Notes: generated from the sequence alone by a model not told the origin. Positions 12,001 to 37,772 are shown, numbered from the stretch's first letter. The stretch is DNA of 64,000 bases from Campylobacteraceae bacterium (GCA_027014605.1 JALWDJ010000094.1:1-64000); one strand, 5' to 3'. Translations and numbers: made by a program.

Positions 12001-12831
12001 ATGTCAAAAGCAAAACGATACAATCCCGATTTTAAAAAGGATAAATCTTTTCTTAAAAAAGGAATTTTTCTATATATATTTTTAATTCCACTATTTATAG
12101 CTATTACGATATCTCTATTAATGCTAAAGGTAAAATATTTTATAGCCAATATAATTGCATTTGGACTATTTTTTGCAACAGCAAAAGCAAACTCTATAGG
12201 TTTAGCTCAAGAGTTGGAGTATTACACCAAAACACTTACAAAAGCTCCTAAAATACCATATAAACTAATAGCAGGAGTTCTACTCGGTATATCTACATTT
12301 TTTAGTGCATCTATTGCAGGTTATCAAAACATATTTATTGGTATCTTTTTGGGAGTTATAGCCTCTATAGGATATTTTCTATATTATGGATTTGACCCAA
12401 GAGCAGATAAGCTTACAAATATTGGTGATATTTCAGCAGAGTTTGTCTTAGAGACATTAGCCAAGGCTAGAGGCAAATTAAAGAGTATTGAAGAGGATAT
12501 GACTCATATTAAAGATACAAAACTCACCTCTCAACTAAGAGTTGCTATCAATAAGGCTTATGAGATATTGAAAAATATAGAAGATGACCCAAAAGATGTA
12601 AGGGTTGCTAGAAAATTTATTATTGTATATATAGATGGTATTAAAAAAGTTACACAATCATATATAGAGTTAGATGAAAAAGATATAACATATGAGACAA
12701 AAGAGAAGTTATATAATCTATTATCCGATGTAGAAGATAGATTTGAAAAAGAGATATTAAGATTAAAAAGAAATAATCAATTTGACCTTGATGTAAATAT
12801 TGATGTACTTCAAGAGCAGATTAAAAATTAA
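12001..12831 (+). CDS. XpaC family (5-bromo-4-chloroindolyl phosphate hydrolysis-type) membrane protein
   Basis: Two to four N-terminal TM segments and a charged helical C-terminus ('FVLETLAKARGKLKSIEEDM…'); located directly upstream of telA. Confidence 0.7.
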   Translation: MSKAKRYNPDFKKDKSFLKKGIFLYIFLIPLFIAITISLLMLKVKYFIANIIAFGLFFATAKANSIGLAQELEYYTKTLTKAPKIPYKLIAGVLLGISTFFSASIAGYQNIFIGIFLGVIASIGYFLYYGFDPRADKLTNIGDISAEFVLETLAKARGKLKSIEEDMTHIKDTKLTSQLRVAINKAYEILKNIEDDPKDVRVARKFIIVYIDGIKKVTQSYIELDEKDITYETKEKLYNLLSDVEDRFEKEILRLKRNNQFDLDVNIDVLQEQIKN

Positions 12832-12846
12832 TATAAGGATAGATAA

Positions 12847-13989
12847 ATGGAGACAAAAAGTAAAGAGATTATAGAGGCAACTATTGAGGCTAAAAGTGAA
12901 AATCTACCTGCTGTTATGCCAGAAGAGCAGAGTAAATTAGAAAAAGCATTAAGTGAATTGGATTTTAATAATAGAACATCTATTATCTATTTTGGTGCAT
13001 CTGTTCAAGAGGAGCTTGATGATATATCAAATCGTATGATAGATGGGGTTAAAAATAAAGATACAGGTGCAGTTGGAGCTGTTTTAAATGAGATGGTAGC
13101 TTCTATTAAAGGTTTTAATATAGAGGAGTTAAATCCAAATAAAAAACTGCCTTGGTATAAAAGTCTATTTGGTGGAACTAAGCCTTTAGTTAAATTTATG
13201 CAAGGGTATGAAGAGGTTAGGGACCAGATAGATGAGATTTCAAATAGCCTAGAGGGACATAAATCTCAACTTATGAGAGATGTAAAATCATTAGATAAAC
13301 TCTATGAGGCAAATTTAGACTATTTTAGAAATTTAGAGATATATATACAAGCAGGAGAGATAAAACTAAAAGAGTTAAATGAGAAAATTCTCCCAGAGTA
13401 TGAGGCTAAAGCTAAGAGTGGGGATATGATGACAATACAGGATTTAAAAGAGATGAGAGGTTTTAGAGATGATTTAGAGAGAAGAGTACACGATTTAAGG
13501 CTATCAAGACAGGTTGCAATGCAGTCTCTTCCTAGTATTAGACTTATTCAAGAGAATGATAAATCTTTAATAAATAAGATTACATCAACCATTGTAAATA
13601 CTGTTCCACTCTGGAGAAATCAATTAGCTCAAACTGTTACCATTTTTAGAAGTCATGAGTCAGCAAAAGCTCTTAAAAATGCAAATGATTTAACAAATGA
13701 GCTATTAGAGAAGAATGCAGAGGGGTTGAGAGAGGCGAATAAGGAGATTAGAACTCAAATGGAGAGAGGTCTTTTTGATATTGAGAGTATTAAGAAAGCA
13801 AATCAGACTCTAATAGATACATTAAATGATTCACTAAGAATTGCAGATGAGGGTAGAGAAGCAAGAGTTAAAGCGCTTAATGAGCTACACAAAACAGAGC
13901 AGGAGCTAAAAGATGCTCTACTTGCTACAAAAGCAAAAATGGAGACCTCATCAGATAAATTAGTAGAAGATTTAAATAAGAAGGGGTAG
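12847..13989 (+). CDS. TelA/KlaA family 'toxic anion resistance' protein
   Basis: 380 aa; 'NPNKKLPWYKSLFGGTKPLVKFMQGYEEVRDQIDEISNSLEGHKSQLMRDVKSLDKLYE', 'LPSIRLIQENDKSLINKI', 'VPLWRNQLAQTVTIFRSHES'. Confidence 0.9.
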   Translation: METKSKEIIEATIEAKSENLPAVMPEEQSKLEKALSELDFNNRTSIIYFGASVQEELDDISNRMIDGVKNKDTGAVGAVLNEMVASIKGFNIEELNPNKKLPWYKSLFGGTKPLVKFMQGYEEVRDQIDEISNSLEGHKSQLMRDVKSLDKLYEANLDYFRNLEIYIQAGEIKLKELNEKILPEYEAKAKSGDMMTIQDLKEMRGFRDDLERRVHDLRLSRQVAMQSLPSIRLIQENDKSLINKITSTIVNTVPLWRNQLAQTVTIFRSHESAKALKNANDLTNELLEKNAEGLREANKEIRTQMERGLFDIESIKKANQTLIDTLNDSLRIADEGREARVKALNELHKTEQELKDALLATKAKMETSSDKLVEDLNKKG

Positions 13990-13992
13990 TAG

Positions 13993-15069
13993 ATGGGACT
14001 TTTTGATTGGATAGGTGGGCAGTTTATAGATGTTATTGAATGGCTTGATGATAGTCATGATACTATGGTATATAGATTTCCAAGGCATGGAAATGAGATA
14101 AAATATGGAGCAAAACTTATAGTTAGAGAGTCACAAGTAGCTGTTTTTGTAAATGAGGGAGTAGTTGCAGATGTATTACAACCTGGAATTTATGAGTTAG
14201 AGACTAAAAATTTACCAATCTTAACTTCACTGAAACATTGGGACCATGGATTTAACTCTCCATTTAAGGCTGAAGTATATTTTTTTAATACAAAAAGATT
14301 TCCAAATCTAAAATGGGGAACAAAAAATCCAATTATGGTAAGAGACCCAGAGTTCTATATGGTAAGGCTTCGAGCTTTTGGAACTTATGAGATACGCATA
14401 ATAGACCCTAAAAAGTTTATGGTAGAGATAGTTGGAACTGATGGACACTTTACAGTTGATGAGATAGATGAGCAGTTAAAAAATCTAATACTCTCTAAAT
14501 TTACAAGAGTATTAGGTGAGAGCAAAATACCAATTTTAGATTTAGCCTCTAATTATGAGAAGTTTAGTAAATATATTACTAAAAATATTGCTCCATATTT
14601 TAAAGAGTATGGATTAGAACTTACAAAAGTTATTGTAGAGAATATCTCTCTTCCTGAAAATGTAGAAAAAGCACTAGATAAAAGAACAAGTAGAGAGGTG
14701 ACAGGAAATCTTGATGATAATCTAAAATATCAAGCAGGTGAAGCCTTAGCTAACTCTAAAGGTGGAGGTACTATTGGTGATATAATGGGGGCAGGAATTG
14801 GTTTTTCTATGGGACAAGAGATGTTTGCCAATAGAGACAAAGAGAAAGATACTCCTCCACCACTCCCATCAAGAGATACAAAAATGTATCATATTGCTGT
14901 TGATAATCTCTCACAAGGTCCTTATGATGTACGAACTATTCAACAGTTTATTGATAAAGGAGATATTAAAAGAGATACTTTAGTATGGACAAAAGGTATG
15001 AAAAATTGGGAGAGTGCAGGTGAAGTATTATCTGAACTCTTTGAAAATACACCTCCACCACTTCCATAA
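13993..15069 (+). CDS. SPFH-domain (YdjI-type) protein with C-terminal GYF_2-like domain
   Basis: 'MGLFDWIGGQFIDVIEWLDDSHDTMVYRFPRHGNEIKYGAKLIVRESQVAVFVNEG'; C-terminal 'MYHIAVDNLSQGPYDVRTIQQFIDKGDIKRDTLVWTKGMKNWESAGEV' GYF_2-like, flanked by TPPPLP motifs. Confidence 0.82.
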   Translation: MGLFDWIGGQFIDVIEWLDDSHDTMVYRFPRHGNEIKYGAKLIVRESQVAVFVNEGVVADVLQPGIYELETKNLPILTSLKHWDHGFNSPFKAEVYFFNTKRFPNLKWGTKNPIMVRDPEFYMVRLRAFGTYEIRIIDPKKFMVEIVGTDGHFTVDEIDEQLKNLILSKFTRVLGESKIPILDLASNYEKFSKYITKNIAPYFKEYGLELTKVIVENISLPENVEKALDKRTSREVTGNLDDNLKYQAGEALANSKGGGTIGDIMGAGIGFSMGQEMFANRDKEKDTPPPLPSRDTKMYHIAVDNLSQGPYDVRTIQQFIDKGDIKRDTLVWTKGMKNWESAGEVLSELFENTPPPLP

Positions 15070-15080
15070 ATTGGAGTGCC

Positions 15081-16166
15081 ATGAAGTTTAAACCAAAAAA
15101 TTTTATATGTAAAAATTGTGGTGGGGTTTTAAGATATGATGTTTTATCTCATGAGTTAAAGTGTGATTTTTGTGGTTCTATTGAGAAAATAGAGAAATCA
15201 AATAAGCCAATAGAAGAGTATGATTTTAAAGAGGGTTTAGCAAAATTTTCTAAAAATAGAGTTGTGGATAATAGAGAGATTACATGTAATAAGTGTGGTG
15301 CTACATTTAAGTTAGACTCTTATGAGTTAAGCTCTCTTTGCCCATATTGTAAAACTCCTATTATTACAGATTTAACAAAAGATATACAACCAAAATCTCT
15401 AATCCCATTTGAAATAACGGAAAAAGAGGCACAAGAGAGATTTAAAAAGTGGATTGGCTCATTATGGTTCGCTCCAAATCAGTTAAAAGATTTTGTTGAT
15501 GGAAACAAAAAACTAATTGGATATTATCTTCCATATTGGACATTTGATAGTAATACAAGAACAAAATATAGTGGAGAGAGAGGAGATATATATTTTGTAA
15601 CAGTTAAAAGAGTAGTTGAGATAAATGGTGAAGATGTGGAGATAGAGGAAGAAGAGCCTAGAATTATGTGGACTCCTGTTAGTGGTGAAGTTTATCATAG
15701 TTTTGATGATGTGACAGTTGGTGCTTCTAAAACAATATCTCATAGTCTATTAGATAGATTAGCCCCCTGGAATACAAAAGAGTTAATCCCTTTTAATGAG
15801 AAGTATCTATCTGGATTTGTATCTGAAGAATATACGATAGATTTAAATGAGGGTTTTAGATATGCAAAAGAGCAGATGAAGAGAGTTATTATAGGAGATA
15901 TTAAACGAGATATTGGAGGAGACCAACAGCAGATAGATTATATGCATACAGAGTATAGTGATACGACATATAAAGATACACTATTTCCAATATATTCAGC
16001 AGAGTTTAAATGGCAAGGAAAACTATATGACTATCTTATAAATGGACAGAGTGGAAAGGTTGTAGGAGAGAGACCATATAGCGTTGTTAAGATAACTATA
16101 GCTATTATCTCAACTATTACTATCTTGGTTATTATATATTATATATATGGGCGTTATCACCATTAG
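15081..16166 (+). CDS. TFIIB-type zinc-ribbon membrane protein (YdjG-like)
   Basis: 'CKNCGGVLRYDVLSHELKCDFCGS', 'CNKCGATFKLDSYELSSLCPYCKTPI', C-terminal TM 'ITIAIISTITILVIIYYIYG'. Confidence 0.78.
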   Translation: MKFKPKNFICKNCGGVLRYDVLSHELKCDFCGSIEKIEKSNKPIEEYDFKEGLAKFSKNRVVDNREITCNKCGATFKLDSYELSSLCPYCKTPIITDLTKDIQPKSLIPFEITEKEAQERFKKWIGSLWFAPNQLKDFVDGNKKLIGYYLPYWTFDSNTRTKYSGERGDIYFVTVKRVVEINGEDVEIEEEEPRIMWTPVSGEVYHSFDDVTVGASKTISHSLLDRLAPWNTKELIPFNEKYLSGFVSEEYTIDLNEGFRYAKEQMKRVIIGDIKRDIGGDQQQIDYMHTEYSDTTYKDTLFPIYSAEFKWQGKLYDYLINGQSGKVVGERPYSVVKITIAIISTITILVIIYYIYGRYHH

Positions 16167-16179
16167 GTAATGGTGATAA
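16154..16179. terminator. Bidirectional hairpin terminator between convergent genes
   Basis: Perfect inverted repeat TTATCACCATTA-GG-TAATGGTGATAA; the + strand gene's TAG stop straddles the loop. Confidence 0.8.
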
Positions 16180-16182
16180 TTA

Positions 16183-18216
16183 TTAGATTTTAAATATAAA
16201 ATCACCTCCATCTAAACTCTCATTTTTATATTGAGGTTTTTGTCTATTATGGGTTTTATTTTCAACATATTTTTTGATATAATCAGCAAGAGTTGTAAAT
16301 CTAATATATCCCTTTTTAGTTCCATCTTCTCCCTCTAGTGCTTTTAGAAGGGCTTGTGTAAATGGTGAGTGGTTAGTACCATCTGATACAGGTTGGTCAT
16401 CTCCTGCTGTTAATATATTAATAGATTTTTTATTTAGTAAATCTCTAAATATAGATGAAGAGCTATTACTATTAGCATTATTTGTTGTTATTTCTTTAGT
16501 TGGTCGTATTCTAACTGAACGAGTTTTACTATCATATTCAACTCTATCTAACTCTTTAGCAGATGATGATGGTATAGATTTTTTTGCATATTTACTATCC
16601 ATTGCAAGTCCAGAAAAACATGAGTCTAAAATAATACCAATATGTTTAGCCCTTGTATCTCTTGTATACATAACAAGTGAACTTATGCTAATGGCTGATT
16701 TATCATAGTACATTACATCAGGATTTGGATTATTGAGGTCTGCATTAAAATCATAAGGTAAAATATAACCCTCTCTGACACCATTATATCCTGTTACTGC
16801 ATCTCCATGCCCTGCAAAATAGAAAAGTGTTGCATCTTGATTTGTTGATGTCTGTTTTATCTTTTTAAGTGCATCTAATATTCTCTCTTTTGTAGCATTT
16901 TCATTATATAACTCAATTACTTCAAATCCTTTTTTTCTTAAAAGTTTTGCTACACTTCTAGCATCATTTACAGCATTAGCAAGTCGTGGAATAGATAATC
17001 TTTTATAGTGGTCAATTCCTACAACAATAGCATACTCTTTGCGATACCATGATGATATACCATTTTGATTAGTGGTAGCTATAGGTGCATTTGAACTACT
17101 AGATGAGCTAAGAGTTGGTTCATAGCTATTTCTTATCTCAAATAGTTTAATTCTCTTTTTTCCTTCTAATCCAACTAATAGATGTCCAGATTTATTAATA
17201 CTAACACTATATCCTCTATCTTTTAGTACAATATTTGTAATATGTCTCTTCTTTTCTAAATCCCATAATCTAATAGTCTTATCCTCTGAAGAGGTTGCCA
17301 TATATGCTCTATTTCTTGCCACTGCAATATCTGTAATTGGTTCTCTATGTTGATTAAACTCTTTTAGAGTATTTCCTTGATTATCTTTAAATTTAATTGT
17401 GTATTTCCATACAGGTGGACCATTTCTTTTTCTATAGTTTCCCTCTGCACTCTCTACTTCTGTAAGTCCTAATATAGTATAGTCATCAAATGATTTTGCT
17501 GCTTTTATCTCTCCATACTCATTTGATGGAGCTAGATATGAGTATATCTCTCTTTTTCGTAAAATATCCCATATTTTTACCTTTTTATCTTTTGCTGTTG
17601 AGACTATTTTTCTATTATAATCGATAAATCCTATATTAGTAACACTATCTCTATGTCCTTCTAATTTTGCTATCTGTTCACCTGAATTAATATTCCAAAT
17701 ATCAATAACTTTATCATCTCCACCACTAGCTACTTTTTTATTATCTGAACTAATAGCAATAGCCAATATATCATTTGAGCTACTTCTCATTCTTTTTACA
17801 AGATTAAAACTATCTAAATTCCAAATCTCAACATATCCATCATCTCCACTACAAGCAAGATATTTTCCATCACTACTAATATCTACTGCTTTTATCTCAT
17901 CATTTTTACTCTCTATTGAGCTAATTGGTTTTAAATCTAAATTATATATAGTAATAGTGCTACTATCTCCATAAGCTATAATGGTATTATTTTTAGGATT
18001 AAATTTTACTCCATATAATTTATAGTTGCTATATATACTATTTATAAAATCGTAACTAAGCTCTCCACCAATTACTGTTAGTGGCTCTTTTATATCTTTT
18101 ACTTTTACAGATGAGGTTGATATTGATATTCCCTTATTTATTGTTGGACTATTTTGACAAGCTGTTAAAGTTAGGATACTTAAGCTTATTAGTAAATATT
18201 TTAGATTAATTTTCAT
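16183..18216 (-). CDS. WD40-repeat caspase (peptidase C14) family predicted lipoprotein
   Basis: N-terminus 'MKINLKYLLISLSILTLTAC' (lipobox LTAC); WD repeats '…DGYVEIWNLD', 'DDKVIDIWNINSG', 'KDKKVKIWDI', 'SEDKTIRLWDL'; caspase His 'LFYFAGHGDAV' and Cys 'IGIILDSCFSG'. Confidence 0.9.
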   Translation of the reverse strand: MKINLKYLLISLSILTLTACQNSPTINKGISISTSSVKVKDIKEPLTVIGGELSYDFINSIYSNYKLYGVKFNPKNNTIIAYGDSSTITIYNLDLKPISSIESKNDEIKAVDISSDGKYLACSGDDGYVEIWNLDSFNLVKRMRSSSNDILAIAISSDNKKVASGGDDKVIDIWNINSGEQIAKLEGHRDSVTNIGFIDYNRKIVSTAKDKKVKIWDILRKREIYSYLAPSNEYGEIKAAKSFDDYTILGLTEVESAEGNYRKRNGPPVWKYTIKFKDNQGNTLKEFNQHREPITDIAVARNRAYMATSSEDKTIRLWDLEKKRHITNIVLKDRGYSVSINKSGHLLVGLEGKKRIKLFEIRNSYEPTLSSSSSSNAPIATTNQNGISSWYRKEYAIVVGIDHYKRLSIPRLANAVNDARSVAKLLRKKGFEVIELYNENATKERILDALKKIKQTSTNQDATLFYFAGHGDAVTGYNGVREGYILPYDFNADLNNPNPDVMYYDKSAISISSLVMYTRDTRAKHIGIILDSCFSGLAMDSKYAKKSIPSSSAKELDRVEYDSKTRSVRIRPTKEITTNNANSNSSSSIFRDLLNKKSINILTAGDDQPVSDGTNHSPFTQALLKALEGEDGTKKGYIRFTTLADYIKKYVENKTHNRQKPQYKNESLDGGDFIFKI

Positions 18217-18260
18217 GACTTTTCCTTGTTTTTAATCGTAGATTTTAATTTTAATATATC

Positions 18261-18279
18261 TAAATGTCTTTAAAGTGTC
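18261..18279 (-). promoter_or_regulatory. GACA direct-repeat motif upstream of WD40-caspase gene
   Basis: Minus strand GACACTTTAAAGACATTTA, then 7 nt, then TAAAAT; matches the motif at 19922-19940 at 17/19 positions with the same spacing. Confidence 0.5.
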
Positions 18280-18414
18280 TTTTTCCCTTAATTTTTTCTT
18301 ATAATAATGATGATTATACATTAAATTATATTATATATTAATTATGTAGTTATAAACTATTTTTTTTTATATATAAATTTAATCTTTTTAACATACTATT
18401 TATATAAATTTTCT

Positions 18415-18420
18415 TATAAT
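18415..18420 (+). promoter_or_regulatory. Putative -10 element for caspase-DUF4384 gene
   Basis: TATAAT within TTTTCTTATAATTAATC, 30 nt before the ATG at 18451. Confidence 0.4.
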
Positions 18421-18450
18421 TAATCTATTATTAAATATTAAGGATTTTTT

Positions 18451-19923
18451 ATGAGTAGTTTTTTTAAATTAGTATTATTAATTTTCATTTTCACACTACA
18501 AGGGTGTAATAAAGAGTTAAAACCTCAATCTAAAGGATTATCTATTAATAATAGTGTATTATCTAAAGATGTAGCTAATATTAAAAAAGAGGCATTAATT
18601 ATTGGTATTAGTGATTATGCACCAGGTAATAGAAATGATTTAGATGGTATAGAGAGAGATACAAGCAAAATGAAAAGACTCTTTGAGAGTTGGGGATTTA
18701 AAGTTACAACTTTATATAATTCTCAAGCTATGAAAATAGTTGATTATCTTGATGATTATGCGAAAAGATTATCTCCAAATGACTATTTTGCTTTTTACTA
18801 TAGTGGACATGGTTCATATAAACCTGATGAGAGTGGAGATGAAGCAGATGGACAAGATGAGACTCTAGTTTTGAGTGATGGGATAATTAATGAACATCTA
18901 CTCGATGATACGCTATATGAAAAGTTTAATGCTATAAAGGCAAAAAAATTAATATTTTTAGACTCATGTCATAGTGGAACAGCATTTAGAGCAATTAATA
19001 AAAATGGAGTTAAAGTAAAGAGTATTTCACCAGATGATGTAACTAAGACCTATCCCGTATCATCTAAAATGAGAGGAATATCTATTAATAGTAGCTCTAC
19101 TTCTAAAGATATTATTAAGGGTAGTGATTATATTGTATTTTCTGCAGCACAAGATAATGAAGAATCATTAGCAACACCTACAGGAAGTCTATTTACAAAT
19201 GCACTATATCAAACATTTACAACTAATGATATTAATAGACCTTTAAGTAGTATAAAAAATGAGTTAACAAATGATGTAATTGAGTATGCAAAAGAGACAC
19301 AAAGCCGACCTCATCATCCAAATATTAGTTATTCAAATCCAGAATTTAAGAGTAAATCTTTAGAAGATTTTTTAAATATAAAAGGAAAGACTACTCCTCC
19401 TCAAAAGGCAACTCAAATAGAAAATTCTTCATTACAAAATACCTTAGATGAGATGATAGATAGTGGAAAATATAAAAAGATGTATATTAAAGGTAGCAAA
19501 GATATTTATAGTGTAGGTGAAGCTGTAAGATTTATTATTGATACAAAAGGAGATAGAGGATTTTTAACTATATTTTATATTGATGGAAATGATGTAACTA
19601 TGTTATATCCAAATAGATTTGTATCTCCTAAAGAGATAAATGGAAGATATAACTTTCCAGATGATTTAGCTAATGGGAAATTTGAATTAGAGGCTTATAA
19701 AAGTTGTAAAGGGTGTAGTGAAGAGAGAACTGTTATATATGCAATTTTATCATCAGAACAGATTACAGATATAGGTGAAATTAAAAGTGGAAATTTAATG
19801 AGTTTTCCAAAGAACTCAAAAAAGTCTAAAATTATGAGTCGAGCTGTAAAATTAAAGGTTATTTCTCAAACTAAAAATTACTCTAAACCACAATTAGGAA
19901 AATATGAATTTATTGTAAAATGA
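18451..19923 (+). CDS. Caspase (C14) family predicted lipoprotein with C-terminal DUF4384 domain
   Basis: Lipobox 'LLIFIFTLQGC'; 'FAFYYSGHGSY' and 'KLIFLDSCHSGTAF' caspase dyad; C-terminal 'IYSVGEAVRFIIDTKGDRGFLTIFYIDGNDVTMLYPN' DUF4384-like. Confidence 0.9.
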   Translation: MSSFFKLVLLIFIFTLQGCNKELKPQSKGLSINNSVLSKDVANIKKEALIIGISDYAPGNRNDLDGIERDTSKMKRLFESWGFKVTTLYNSQAMKIVDYLDDYAKRLSPNDYFAFYYSGHGSYKPDESGDEADGQDETLVLSDGIINEHLLDDTLYEKFNAIKAKKLIFLDSCHSGTAFRAINKNGVKVKSISPDDVTKTYPVSSKMRGISINSSSTSKDIIKGSDYIVFSAAQDNEESLATPTGSLFTNALYQTFTTNDINRPLSSIKNELTNDVIEYAKETQSRPHHPNISYSNPEFKSKSLEDFLNIKGKTTPPQKATQIENSSLQNTLDEMIDSGKYKKMYIKGSKDIYSVGEAVRFIIDTKGDRGFLTIFYIDGNDVTMLYPNRFVSPKEINGRYNFPDDLANGKFELEAYKSCKGCSEERTVIYAILSSEQITDIGEIKSGNLMSFPKNSKKSKIMSRAVKLKVISQTKNYSKPQLGKYEFIVK

Positions 19924-19940
19924 CATTTTTAAGACATTTA
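19922..19940 (+). promoter_or_regulatory. GACA direct-repeat motif upstream of DUF4384 lipoprotein gene
   Basis: GACATTTTTAAGACATTTA, 7 nt, TATAAT (19948-19953), then ATG at 19982. Confidence 0.5.
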
Positions 19941-19981
19941 TTTATGATATAATTAAAATTAATATTTTAAGGAGAATAATA

Positions 19982-20614
19982 ATGAAAAAAAAACAGTTTT
20001 ATAAAGTATCTATTTTAGTAGTAACAGCAATTTTTGCTATAGGTTGTTCATATAATAAAACACCAAAACCGATAAAACATGTAAAAGTAAATAAGCCTGT
20101 AAGAGTAGTACCAGCCAAGCCATCAGGTATTACTCTATCACAATTAAATAGTGGAGGGGTAACAACACTTGCACTAAAAGGAGGACATAAATTTAAAGAG
20201 GGAGAACCTATTAATTTTATTATTGATACACGAGGTGCAGAGGGTTATTTATATGTTGTATATAGTGATAGTAGTGGAGAGGTTGGAGTATTATATCCAA
20301 ATCCAAAATCACCATTAACTGAGATAAGTGGAAAATATATATTTCCAAGAGATTTTGGAAATATGACGATAAATGCAACAAAAGATTGTAAAAATTGTAA
20401 AGAGGATAAGACAATAATATATGCACTTTTAAGTAAGAAACCTATTTTAGATATTAAAAATATAAGTCAGGCTCAACTTAGAAATATATTAGGTGGGCAG
20501 AGTCTTCAAACAAGTATAGCAAAAAGTAAAGGTATAAGTATGAATTTAGATGCAGGAACAACTAATAGTAATGCTAATGTAAATATTGGTGTACTTGAGT
20601 TTGTAGTAGAGTAG
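19982..20614 (+). CDS. Stand-alone DUF4384-domain lipoprotein
   Basis: Lipobox 'VVTAIFAIGC'; 'GEPINFIIDTRGAEGYLYVVYSDSSGEVGVLYPNPKSPLTEISGKYIFPRDF…CKNCKEDKTIIYALLS' parallels the C-terminus of the preceding caspase. Confidence 0.85.
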   Translation: MKKKQFYKVSILVVTAIFAIGCSYNKTPKPIKHVKVNKPVRVVPAKPSGITLSQLNSGGVTTLALKGGHKFKEGEPINFIIDTRGAEGYLYVVYSDSSGEVGVLYPNPKSPLTEISGKYIFPRDFGNMTINATKDCKNCKEDKTIIYALLSKKPILDIKNISQAQLRNILGGQSLQTSIAKSKGISMNLDAGTTNSNANVNIGVLEFVVE

Positions 20615-20627
20615 AAGGAGAAAAGAT

Positions 20628-21608
20628 ATGAAAAGAGTAGTAAAATTATCAATAGTAGCAGTAAGTTTTCTTATATTTAGTGGATGTGCCACAGACAGTC
20701 CAAATGTAAAAGAGGCTGGTTCAACCATTACGGAACAAAAGTCAATATACTCATCTATTTTACCACAAATTAATGATATGGTAAGAATTTTTAGAAATGA
20801 ACCTATGAATATATTTGTAAATCAGATAGAGAATAAAACAGGAGCAAGAGGTAAATTACCAGCCGATATTACTACAATTGTAAATACAACATTTACAAAA
20901 ATAGGAGATTATGTAGTTCCAATTTTTAATCTTGAAGCTAGTGAAAATGCAAAAAGACAGACATATATTATTAATGGAGCAATTACTGAGTTTGATGTTG
21001 TTAGCTCAAAAGATAGTGGAATAAATGCTTCTGGTACAGGGACTGTTGGAAAAAGACATAATAGATGGGATTCAGATGGCTCGATTGATAGTGAAAGTCA
21101 AACTATTCATTTAGGAATAAGTCTAATACCATCTGATATGCATACAGGAAACTATATACCACTAAAATCGACATCAAATAGAGTTGTAATTGAGAAGAAG
21201 AGTAGTGCAAATGAGTTTGCATTTTCAATTTTAGGTAGTGGATTTGGATTTAATAATGCTGTTACAAAATCTCAAGGTATTCATGCTTCAATTACTGCTT
21301 TAGTAGAACTTAGTGTTGCAGAGGTTTTAGGTAAATTGGGTAATTTCCCATATTGGCTTCTTATGAAAGGTGGAAAAGTAGATAAAAATGTAGTAAATAG
21401 TCTTATGCATCAATTTCTTCATGAACCTCTAAATAAAAAGATAGAACAGGTTAGTTATCTACTTATGTTACATGGAAAAAATGTTAAAGTAACAAGATTA
21501 ATGAACAATCAATTAAAACAGGCAATTATTGAATATAAGAGTGAGCATGGATTACCAGCTGATGACACACTCTCTAAAGAGTTTTATAGAACTCTATTAG
21601 AACCTTAA
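20628..21608 (+). CDS. CsgG-like lipoprotein with C-terminal peptidoglycan-binding-like extension
   Basis: Lipobox 'VSFLIFSGC'; CsgG-like 'NIFVNQIENKTGA', 'YIINGAITEFD', 'SQTIHLGISLIPSDMHTG', 'ANEFAFSILGSGFGFNNAVTKSQGIHASITALVELSVAEVL'. Confidence 0.7.
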   Translation: MKRVVKLSIVAVSFLIFSGCATDSPNVKEAGSTITEQKSIYSSILPQINDMVRIFRNEPMNIFVNQIENKTGARGKLPADITTIVNTTFTKIGDYVVPIFNLEASENAKRQTYIINGAITEFDVVSSKDSGINASGTGTVGKRHNRWDSDGSIDSESQTIHLGISLIPSDMHTGNYIPLKSTSNRVVIEKKSSANEFAFSILGSGFGFNNAVTKSQGIHASITALVELSVAEVLGKLGNFPYWLLMKGGKVDKNVVNSLMHQFLHEPLNKKIEQVSYLLMLHGKNVKVTRLMNNQLKQAIIEYKSEHGLPADDTLSKEFYRTLLEP

Positions 21609-21615
21609 AATATTA

Positions 21616-21636
21616 AGAGCAAATCTTACTTGCTCT
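21616..21636. terminator. Hairpin between convergent genes
   Basis: AGAGCAA-ATCTTAC-TTGCTCT inverted repeat. Confidence 0.65.
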
Positions 21637-35815: not shown

Positions 35816-36769
35816 ATGTCAAAAGGTAAGAAAGTAACAGTTATTGGTACAGGTAATTTTGGCTCAACAGTTGCATTTATATTAGCAATGAATGGTGTTT
35901 GTCATAATGTTGTTTTAAGAGGTAGAAATTATAATATAGCAAAAGGAAAAGCTCTTGATATGTCACAAGCTTCTAATGCAGCAAGACAACATACTATTGT
36001 AAAAGCAGGAAAAGGTCCTGAAGATATGGTTGACTCTGATGTTGTAGTAATTACTGCAGGAGCTCCTAGAACTCCTGGTATGAGTAGAGATGATTTACTT
36101 ATAAAAAATGCAGAGATTGTAAAGATGTACTCACGAGAGATAAAAGAGCATGTACCTAATGCTATTGTTGTTGTTGTATCTAATCCTCTTGATGCTATGA
36201 CTTATGTTGTTTTAAAGGAGACAGGATTTCCTAGAGAGAGAGTTTTAGGAATGGCAGGAATATTAGATAGTGCTAGAATGGCTCACTTTATATATGAAAA
36301 GTTAGAGTATGGTGCTGGGCAAATTCGTGCTACTGTTATGGGTGGACATGGTGATACTATGGTTCCTCTTCCTAAATTTACAACTGTTGCAGGTGTGCCT
36401 ATTGAGGATTTATTAGACTCTGAGGAGATTGGTGAGATTGTGAAAAAGACTAGAAATGGTGGAGCAGAGATTGTTAATCTATTAGGAAATGGTTCAGCAT
36501 ATTATGCACCTGCAAAATCAACAACTGTAATGGTAGAGGCAATTTTGCGGGATACAAATCAAATTCACTCATGTGCTGTTATGTTAAAGGGTGAGTATGG
36601 ATATTCAGATATAGTATCAGGTGTTCCTGTTATGATTGGAGCAGGTGGAGCTGAACAGGTTATTCAGATGGGACTTAAACCTCTTCAGATAAATAGATTT
36701 AAAAAATCTGTAGCTTCAGTACAGAAGATGGTTGATAAGTTAGAGGAGATAAAATTTTTTGAGAAATAG
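35816..36769 (+). CDS. mdh: Malate dehydrogenase (LDH/MDH superfamily), copy 1
   Basis: 'GTGNFGSTVAFILA', 'TAGAPRTPGMSRDDLL' (Arg typical of MDH), 'GGHGDTMVPLP' catalytic His. Confidence 0.9.
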   Translation: MSKGKKVTVIGTGNFGSTVAFILAMNGVCHNVVLRGRNYNIAKGKALDMSQASNAARQHTIVKAGKGPEDMVDSDVVVITAGAPRTPGMSRDDLLIKNAEIVKMYSREIKEHVPNAIVVVVSNPLDAMTYVVLKETGFPRERVLGMAGILDSARMAHFIYEKLEYGAGQIRATVMGGHGDTMVPLPKFTTVAGVPIEDLLDSEEIGEIVKKTRNGGAEIVNLLGNGSAYYAPAKSTTVMVEAILRDTNQIHSCAVMLKGEYGYSDIVSGVPVMIGAGGAEQVIQMGLKPLQINRFKKSVASVQKMVDKLEEIKFFEK

Positions 36770-36821
36770 TTATTAAACTAATATATGTTACTCTTCTATT
36801 TTAATATAAAAAAGGATAAAT

Positions 36822-37772
36822 ATGATAAATAAAAGACGAGTAGCAATAGTTGGAGCAGGAGCAGTTGGAGCTAGTACAGCTTATGCCTTGGCTCTTAATG
36901 GAGCTTGTGGCGAGATAATTTTATACGATATAGTTTCAGATATTGCAATTGGAAAAGCTATAGATATAGCACAATCGACAAACTATTCACCACGAGGTAC
37001 AGTAGTTAGATCTATAGTTAACCCTGAAGAGATGGTTAATTGTGATATTGTTGTTGTTACAGCAGGAGTTCCACGAAAAAAAGATATGACTAGAGCAGAT
37101 TTATTAAATATAAATGCAAATATAGTCAAAGAGGTCTCTTTGAATATAAAAAAATACTCACCAAATGCGATAATTATATGTGTATCTAACCCTTTAGATG
37201 TTATGAATTTTGTTATTCAGAAGATAACAGGTTGGGATAGAAGTAGAATTATTGGAATGAGTGGAGCTCTAGATGGTTCACGAATGGCATATCAGATATA
37301 TAAAAAGTTAGGTTTTGGAGCATCACAGATAAAGGCTATGGTAATTGGTGAACATGGGCAAAATATGATACCATATCCTGAAATTTCAGATGTTGCTGGA
37401 GTTCCACTTACAAAACTACTCTCTAAAAATGATATAGATAACATTATTCAAAAGACAAAAGATGGTGGAGCAGAGATTGTAAAATATCTAAAGACATCAG
37501 CATTCTATGCACCTGCTAGAGCCATAGCTGTAATGGTTGAAGCTATCTTAAATGATGAAGATAAGATAATCTCAAGCTCTGTTATACTTGATGGAGAGTA
37601 TGGATATAGAGGCGTATCTATTAGTATTCCTATAGTTTTGGGTAGAAGTGGAGTTAAAAAGATAATTGAGCTCGATTTAGATGAGCCAACTAGAGAGAAG
37701 TTTGATTTAGCTGTTGAGTCTATTAAAAATGGTATTTCTATTTTAGAAAATAGTGATTTTTTCAATAAATAG
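36822..37772 (+). CDS. Malate dehydrogenase-like (LDH/MDH superfamily), tandem copy 2
   Basis: 'GAGAVGASTAYALA', 'TAGVPRKKDMTRADLL', 'GEHGQNMIPYP'; same length and layout as copy 1. Confidence 0.87.
   Translation: MINKRRVAIVGAGAVGASTAYALALNGACGEIILYDIVSDIAIGKAIDIAQSTNYSPRGTVVRSIVNPEEMVNCDIVVVTAGVPRKKDMTRADLLNINANIVKEVSLNIKKYSPNAIIICVSNPLDVMNFVIQKITGWDRSRIIGMSGALDGSRMAYQIYKKLGFGASQIKAMVIGEHGQNMIPYPEISDVAGVPLTKLLSKNDIDNIIQKTKDGGAEIVKYLKTSAFYAPARAIAVMVEAILNDEDKIISSSVILDGEYGYRGVSISIPIVLGRSGVKKIIELDLDEPTREKFDLAVESIKNGISILENSDFFNK

Follow-up and report, generated by a model that had tools for sequence, protein, structure and literature searches.

A caspase-bearing CsgG-like lipoprotein locus in a Sulfurovum-like genus and its possible role in surface-protein export

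In a 64,000-nucleotide stretch of DNA from Campylobacteraceae bacterium (GCA_027014605.1, JALWDJ010000094.1:1-64000, hereafter the window), four adjacent genes encode predicted lipoproteins, namely two caspases, a DUF4384 protein and a CsgG-like protein. Their domain content, lipoboxes, intact catalytic dyads, CsgG fold and conserved operon were computed, as was the co-inheritance of that operon with the WD40-caspase gene and with an operon of secreted proteins. We tentatively read the locus, with a probability of about 0.45, as encoding the outer-membrane components of a surface-protein exporter of CsgG type to which caspases were added. The co-inheritance suggests that these caspases serve surface-protein export rather than cell death. 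The four genes are as follows.

16183..18216, minus strand: WD40 propeller and C14 caspase lipoprotein (WD40-caspase), 677 amino acids, lipobox LTAC, predicted lipid-bearing Cys C20; Pfam WD40 and Peptidase_C14, orthologues in the genus
18451..19923, plus strand: C14 caspase with a metacaspase-like GDExDGxDE segment and a C-terminal DUF4384-like domain (caspase-DUF4384), lipoprotein, 490 amino acids, predicted lipid-bearing Cys C19
19982..20614, plus strand: stand-alone DUF4384 lipoprotein, 210 amino acids, predicted lipid-bearing Cys C22, beta-rich domain; Pfam DUF4384 and a structure model
20628..21608, plus strand: CsgG-fold lipoprotein, 326 amino acids, predicted lipid-bearing Cys C20; helical domain at the C-terminus (about 253-324)

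Each of the four N-termini contained a basic start and a hydrophobic stretch leading to the lipobox cysteine listed above, and a PROSITE-like lipoprotein rule applied to the 58 called genes of the window, with processing predicted from sequence, was satisfied by exactly these four neighbours, corroborating the original prediction of four adjacent lipoprotein-like open reading frames, one of them divergent, at these positions. That description is refined on two points: a WD40 propeller precedes the caspase in the first protein, and the fourth protein ends in an additional helical domain. The lipobox cysteine was kept in 14 of 15 aligned members of the CsgG family and was present in most caspase-DUF4384 orthologues, those at loci L034 and L031 having a plain Sec-type signal instead. 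The three plus-strand genes were separated by gaps of 58 and 13 bp and preceded by plausible ribosome-binding sites, with the WD40-caspase gene divergent from them, and the ratio of nonsynonymous to synonymous substitution rates (dN/dS) was 0.16-0.31 across the four genes, from which purifying selection on the block can be read.

The distribution of the locus was surveyed in 34 genomes of one Sulfurovum-like genus and in 298 genomes drawn across Campylobacterota. The operon of caspase-DUF4384, DUF4384 and CsgG-like genes was found in 10 of the 34, and full WD40-caspase orthologues were found in nine of these ten and in none of the other 24 (Fisher p 1.9e-7), in agreement with the predicted co-occurrence in related genomes; in G004, G006, G008 and G019 the WD40-caspase lay on a different contig from the operon. 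On an aspS tree the traits required 6-7 changes, and the WD40-caspase accompanied the operon in 4/4 well-supported independent pairs. In G008 the operon retained the left neighbour seen in the window and the WD40-caspase retained the right one, as would follow if a rearrangement had broken up a block that was once continuous. We take the co-inheritance statistics as supportive and not final, because four pairs cannot reach significance in a sign test and the bins are incomplete. A wider spread across Campylobacterota was rejected, as the 298 phylum genomes gave only scattered matches outside the genus and nothing comparable to the module. Relatives outside the phylum were likewise rejected, since a genome scan returned only Sulfurovum-like loci and distant caspases in other bacteria, the latter having no adjoining DUF4384-only or CsgG-like gene in a profile search. 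The module is real but narrow, being confined to one Sulfurovum-like genus.

The unit is larger than these four genes and includes a distant operon of secreted proteins, comprising a GIN/DUF2807 protein, an ankyrin protein and a KNR-motif protein. A KNR-family profile search found this family in all ten module genomes, each of which has the operon, and outside them the GIN/ankyrin/KNR form of the operon occurred only in G028 (Fisher p 8e-8). In the window's genome a GIN-ankyrin-KNR-lipoprotein operon lies on contig C27 (L124:6636-9381), and in G001, G004, G011, G031 and G032 the module operon or the WD40-caspase gene is near an ankyrin gene and a gene for a small secreted [ST]F...KNR protein, joined in G001 and G011 by a GIN/DUF2807 protein gene. 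The original prediction of a single envelope module thus held in part: co-inheritance and the CsgG fold make it coherent, but the four genes are incomplete, since the secreted-protein operon elsewhere in the genome belongs to it too. The many secreted caspases of varied make-up in the genus would also fit general envelope proteolysis for surface turnover or nutrition, in which membrane-attached caspases, displayed or anchored by the CsgG-like and DUF4384 proteins, degrade extracellular or misfolded proteins with no dedicated export client; we find this distinctly unlikely, as it leaves unexplained why the caspases are so strictly inherited with both the CsgG-like gene and the GIN/ankyrin/KNR operon.

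The secreted KNR family, located beside CsgG-like genes or in the companion operon, has a near-invariant KNR(A/S) near the N-terminus (alignment A5: L036, L037, L041, L042, L030, L044-L047 and L085), a candidate export signal. As a caspase target the motif was rejected, being equally conserved at caspase-free loci and reading KNL in G031, which has caspases. A ten-residue motif recurs in the small repeat proteins, at the C-terminus of some ankyrin proteins and in the product of a gene that lies downstream of the module, matching 11 proteins versus 1.25 in shuffled sequences, with 10 of the 11 in those families, and is absent from the ankyrin protein of the window's genome; we rejected it as a test and keep it as description only, because the pattern was written from the same proteins.

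CsgG-like paralogues at caspase-free loci directly follow a KNR-motif protein gene (L030, L041, L042, L044-L047 and L085), together with GIN and ankyrin genes at L041 and with long repeat-rich secreted proteins at L030 and L044-L047. Given that CsgG-like and KNR genes occur together at loci that lack caspases, the stable partnership is that of a CsgG-like protein with secreted surface-type proteins, to which caspases and DUF4384 were added in one branch, suggesting that export is the core function of the system and that the caspases were added on. In the window's own genome, a second CsgG-like lipoprotein gene follows those for three secreted proteins with Asn/Ser-rich repeats and one KNR-motif protein (L030:3416-9075, G000:C60); the one repeat protein scanned has no Pfam match, and the cluster looks like an undescribed surface-fibre export cluster.

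The label of the CsgG-like protein rests on its relatives and on fold comparison and is not evident from the window protein alone, which scored 11.6 bits, under the PF03783 cut-off of 20.8, and had no Pfam match at E 0.01, whereas its relatives at L041 and L042 exceeded that cut-off. In a Foldseek comparison, a model built with 15 relatives (mean pLDDT 73) matched CsgG 4uv2 best (E 6.1e-5), with a target TM of about 0.43 that is moderate because the model is a lone protomer, followed by FlgT and PelC, whose folds are related; a profile search gave weak matches to CsgG 3x2r and the peptidoglycan-binding 5tv7 (E 0.028). A CsgG fold, which the original prediction had named as a test of its CsgG-like call, is likely on this modelling, and the call stands. 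The model was of low confidence at 130-155 and 193-212, stretches that by our reading of the alignment may correspond to the CsgG membrane hairpins, and was confident over the helical domain at 253-324, which weakly resembles peptidoglycan-binding domains. The protein may form a nonameric outer-membrane pore, and its C-terminal domain may bind peptidoglycan.

The resemblance to peptidoglycan-binding domains would also suit a role in cell-wall or envelope regulation, in which the CsgG-fold lipoprotein acts like LpoB and stress leads the caspases to cleave regulators of the envelope, with no export. LpoB, which activates a peptidoglycan synthase, is anchored in the outer membrane and belongs to the same fold class; LpoB and YcfL are CsgG-related lipoproteins. 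In three genomes of the genus the same arrangement places a caspase gene close to one for a DUF4384 lipoprotein, and in the two of these that were read in sequence (G027 and G032) the caspase carries a fused DUF1425 (YcfL) domain, with genes for two LpoB lipoproteins after it; in addition, G046 has a CsgG-like relative (L085) in one cluster with repeat, pentapeptide, YcfL and LpoB genes. By contrast, the CsgG-like protein of the locus has a longer CsgG-type fold and retains regions that appear to match the membrane hairpins of CsgG, the LpoB model does not match it, and its paralogues accompany secreted repeat proteins and not cell-wall enzymes. On balance we regard a purely cell-wall role as unlikely. 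The fusion operons themselves (L088:5014-7159 and L089:8065-10320, in sister genomes, with a DUF4384 lipoprotein nearby) apparently represent a second association of a caspase with the CsgG class, so that links between secreted caspases and CsgG/LpoB-type lipoproteins are seen at least twice in the genus. Other caspase loci combine caspase-DUF4384 with a DUF4384 lipoprotein (L083) or a WD40-caspase with caspase-DUF4384 (L031 and L079).

Both caspase domains scored far above the Pfam cut-off for Peptidase family C14 (84.2 and 110.4 bits versus 21.4), and both His/Cys motifs noted in the original prediction proved to be intact, with the following invariant dyads.

16807..16809, minus strand: catalytic His470 (FAGHGD) of the WD40-caspase, invariant in orthologue alignment A4
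16618..16620, minus strand: catalytic Cys533 (LDSCFSG) of the WD40-caspase, invariant in orthologue alignment A4
18808..18810, plus strand: catalytic His120 (YSGHGS) of caspase-DUF4384, invariant in orthologue alignment A2
18967..18969, plus strand: catalytic Cys173 (LDSCHSG) of caspase-DUF4384, invariant in orthologue alignment A2

The nearest relatives of caspase-DUF4384 in the PDB were GSU0716 and metacaspases, with which it has an acidic GDE-DG-DE segment in common, and its conserved D70 and D171 are acidic residues where the S1 pocket of a metacaspase is expected. Both caspases are putative proteases, for which a preference for Arg/Lys would be expected. The stand-alone DUF4384 protein, also called in the original prediction, scored 27.4 bits, barely over the PF14326 cut-off of 27, and the copy within the caspase scored 19.8 bits, under it, while being ~40% identical to stand-alone copies. 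The core of the stand-alone model reached a pLDDT of about 90, and a PDB fold search gave no match better than E 0.003, so we name it only a beta-rich domain. A truncated DUF4384-type lipoprotein of 60 amino acids lies between the DUF4384 and CsgG-like genes in G011 (L036:2268-2450). Prokaryotic caspase homologues (orthocaspases and metacaspases) that carry WD40 or DUF4384 domains, including members whose N-termini are probably signal peptides, have been described (PMC3501461, PMC6426788, PMC7475262) and have both domain partnerships in common with this locus, whereas a lipid-anchored pair that is operonic or co-inherited with a CsgG-like gene was absent from the papers found.

Caspases also invite a reading as self-destruction or defence, in which phage or stress would lead the lipid-anchored caspases to open or process the CsgG-like protein, permeabilising the outer membrane and killing the cell. 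The caspase domains match the PADLOC caspase model, and the patchy distribution of the module, with about 6 changes on the tree, is in keeping with such a role. PADLOC, however, reported no complete defence system, only single caspase and repeat models matching, and neither the DUF4384 nor the CsgG-like proteins gave a match. No defence genes were recognised adjoining the module in the genomes examined, the companion operon codes for secreted surface-type proteins, and the block proteins have a predicted location beyond the inner membrane, a place for which we know of no phage-sensing caspase. We therefore hold a defence function to be quite improbable.

Compared with known systems, the locus resembles curli in having a CsgG-fold outer-membrane lipoprotein and associated small repeat-rich secreted proteins. 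It differs in that its protein has very low sequence similarity to CsgG and carries an extra C-terminal domain, in its two caspases, and in its secreted partners, which are GIN, ankyrin and KNR-motif proteins. Canonical curli (type VIII) secretion was ruled out, as no genome of the genus gave a CsgE or CsgF match above cut-off. The closest parallel is offered by the Fap system of Pseudomonas (FapA-F), which encodes a periplasmic cysteine protease, FapD, together with an outer-membrane export system, and in which the active-site Cys of FapD is required for FapC secretion (PMC5557850). FapD is of C39 type and FapF is an unrelated trimeric barrel, whereas the locus has lipid-anchored C14 caspases and a CsgG-fold pore candidate; none of the four module proteins matched the C39-type FapD or FapF families, the genome not having been searched for FapF. 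In the literature on caspases with CsgG, LpoB or Sulfurovum no such system was found (preprints and most subscription papers lay outside the scope), and the combination of caspase, DUF4384 and CsgG-like proteins is undescribed in the papers found, while caspases with WD40 or DUF4384 are themselves already known.

Taking the export reading as a mechanism, we propose that the CsgG-fold lipoprotein would form an oligomer in the outer membrane and may grip peptidoglycan through its C-terminal domain, and that both lipid-anchored caspases would be positioned at the periplasmic face beside the pore. DUF4384 occurs fused to one caspase as well as in a lipoprotein of its own, and it would hold the fused caspase at the complex. 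The candidate clients or extracellular partners come from the companion operon (GIN/DUF2807, ankyrin and KNR-motif proteins and the lipoprotein), possibly with the separate small repeat proteins. Activation would precede cutting, with Ca2+ a plausible activator of the metacaspase-like caspase, and the activated caspases would cleave after Arg/Lys, either in a client or in part of the pore, and thereby license or end export; Fap amyloid secretion similarly needs a periplasmic cysteine protease, FapD. Whether these features amount to a distinct export machine, with obligate lipid-anchored caspases, a cleavage-controlled and peptidoglycan-attached CsgG-like pore, DUF4384 docking and GIN/ankyrin/KNR clients, is in our view doubtful.

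Several observations weigh against the export reading. CsgE and CsgF were above cut-off in 0 of the 34 genus genomes, the E. coli control being positive, and the only four independent pairs with good support on the aspS tree give p 0.125 in a sign test. The companion operon of the window's genome (L124) is not linked to the module, and a homologue of the small repeat protein, a candidate client, occurs in only 8 of the 34 genomes, one of which has neither the module nor the companion operon. In addition, the block lipoproteins could sort to the inner membrane in this lineage, and the KNR motif is not an obvious site for caspase cleavage.

The four-gene block is delimited and divided by the following sites.

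16153..16180, no strand assigned: hairpin terminator-like site at the left edge of the block
18217..18450, no strand assigned: divergent intergenic region, 234 bp, A+T-rich, with presumed divergent promoters
21616..21636, no strand assigned: hairpin terminator-like site at the right edge of the block

Promoter-like matches in the divergent region were no commoner than in shuffled sequences, so a promoter is not claimed, and an Rfam search of the locus region matched nothing. Upstream of the block, window positions 12001-16166 contain a conserved operon of XpaC-like (PF10112), TelA, SPFH/Band 7 with GYF_2 and zinc-ribbon proteins, which is syntenic in G008 and adjoins the inverted caspase operon there. 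Elsewhere in the window, positions 35816-37772 hold a tandem pair of malate/lactate-dehydrogenase-like genes. Among further caspases of the genus, L093 (G030:C392) contains about seven caspase-like genes in 12.6 kb, and L078:619-1836 encodes a caspase that looks like a lipoprotein and has an Lcl_C (PF07603) domain joined to it.

Discussion of what bacterial caspases do has centred on cell death and stress. The caspases of this locus are inherited together with a pore-like protein of the outer membrane and with a specific secreted-protein operon, and this provides a specific, testable non-death hypothesis with named partners and FapD as a precedent. The locus also hints that DUF4384, which is often found on caspases, serves for docking. 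If the distinct caspase export machine were true, it would give bacterial caspases a physiological, non-death role at the cell surface.

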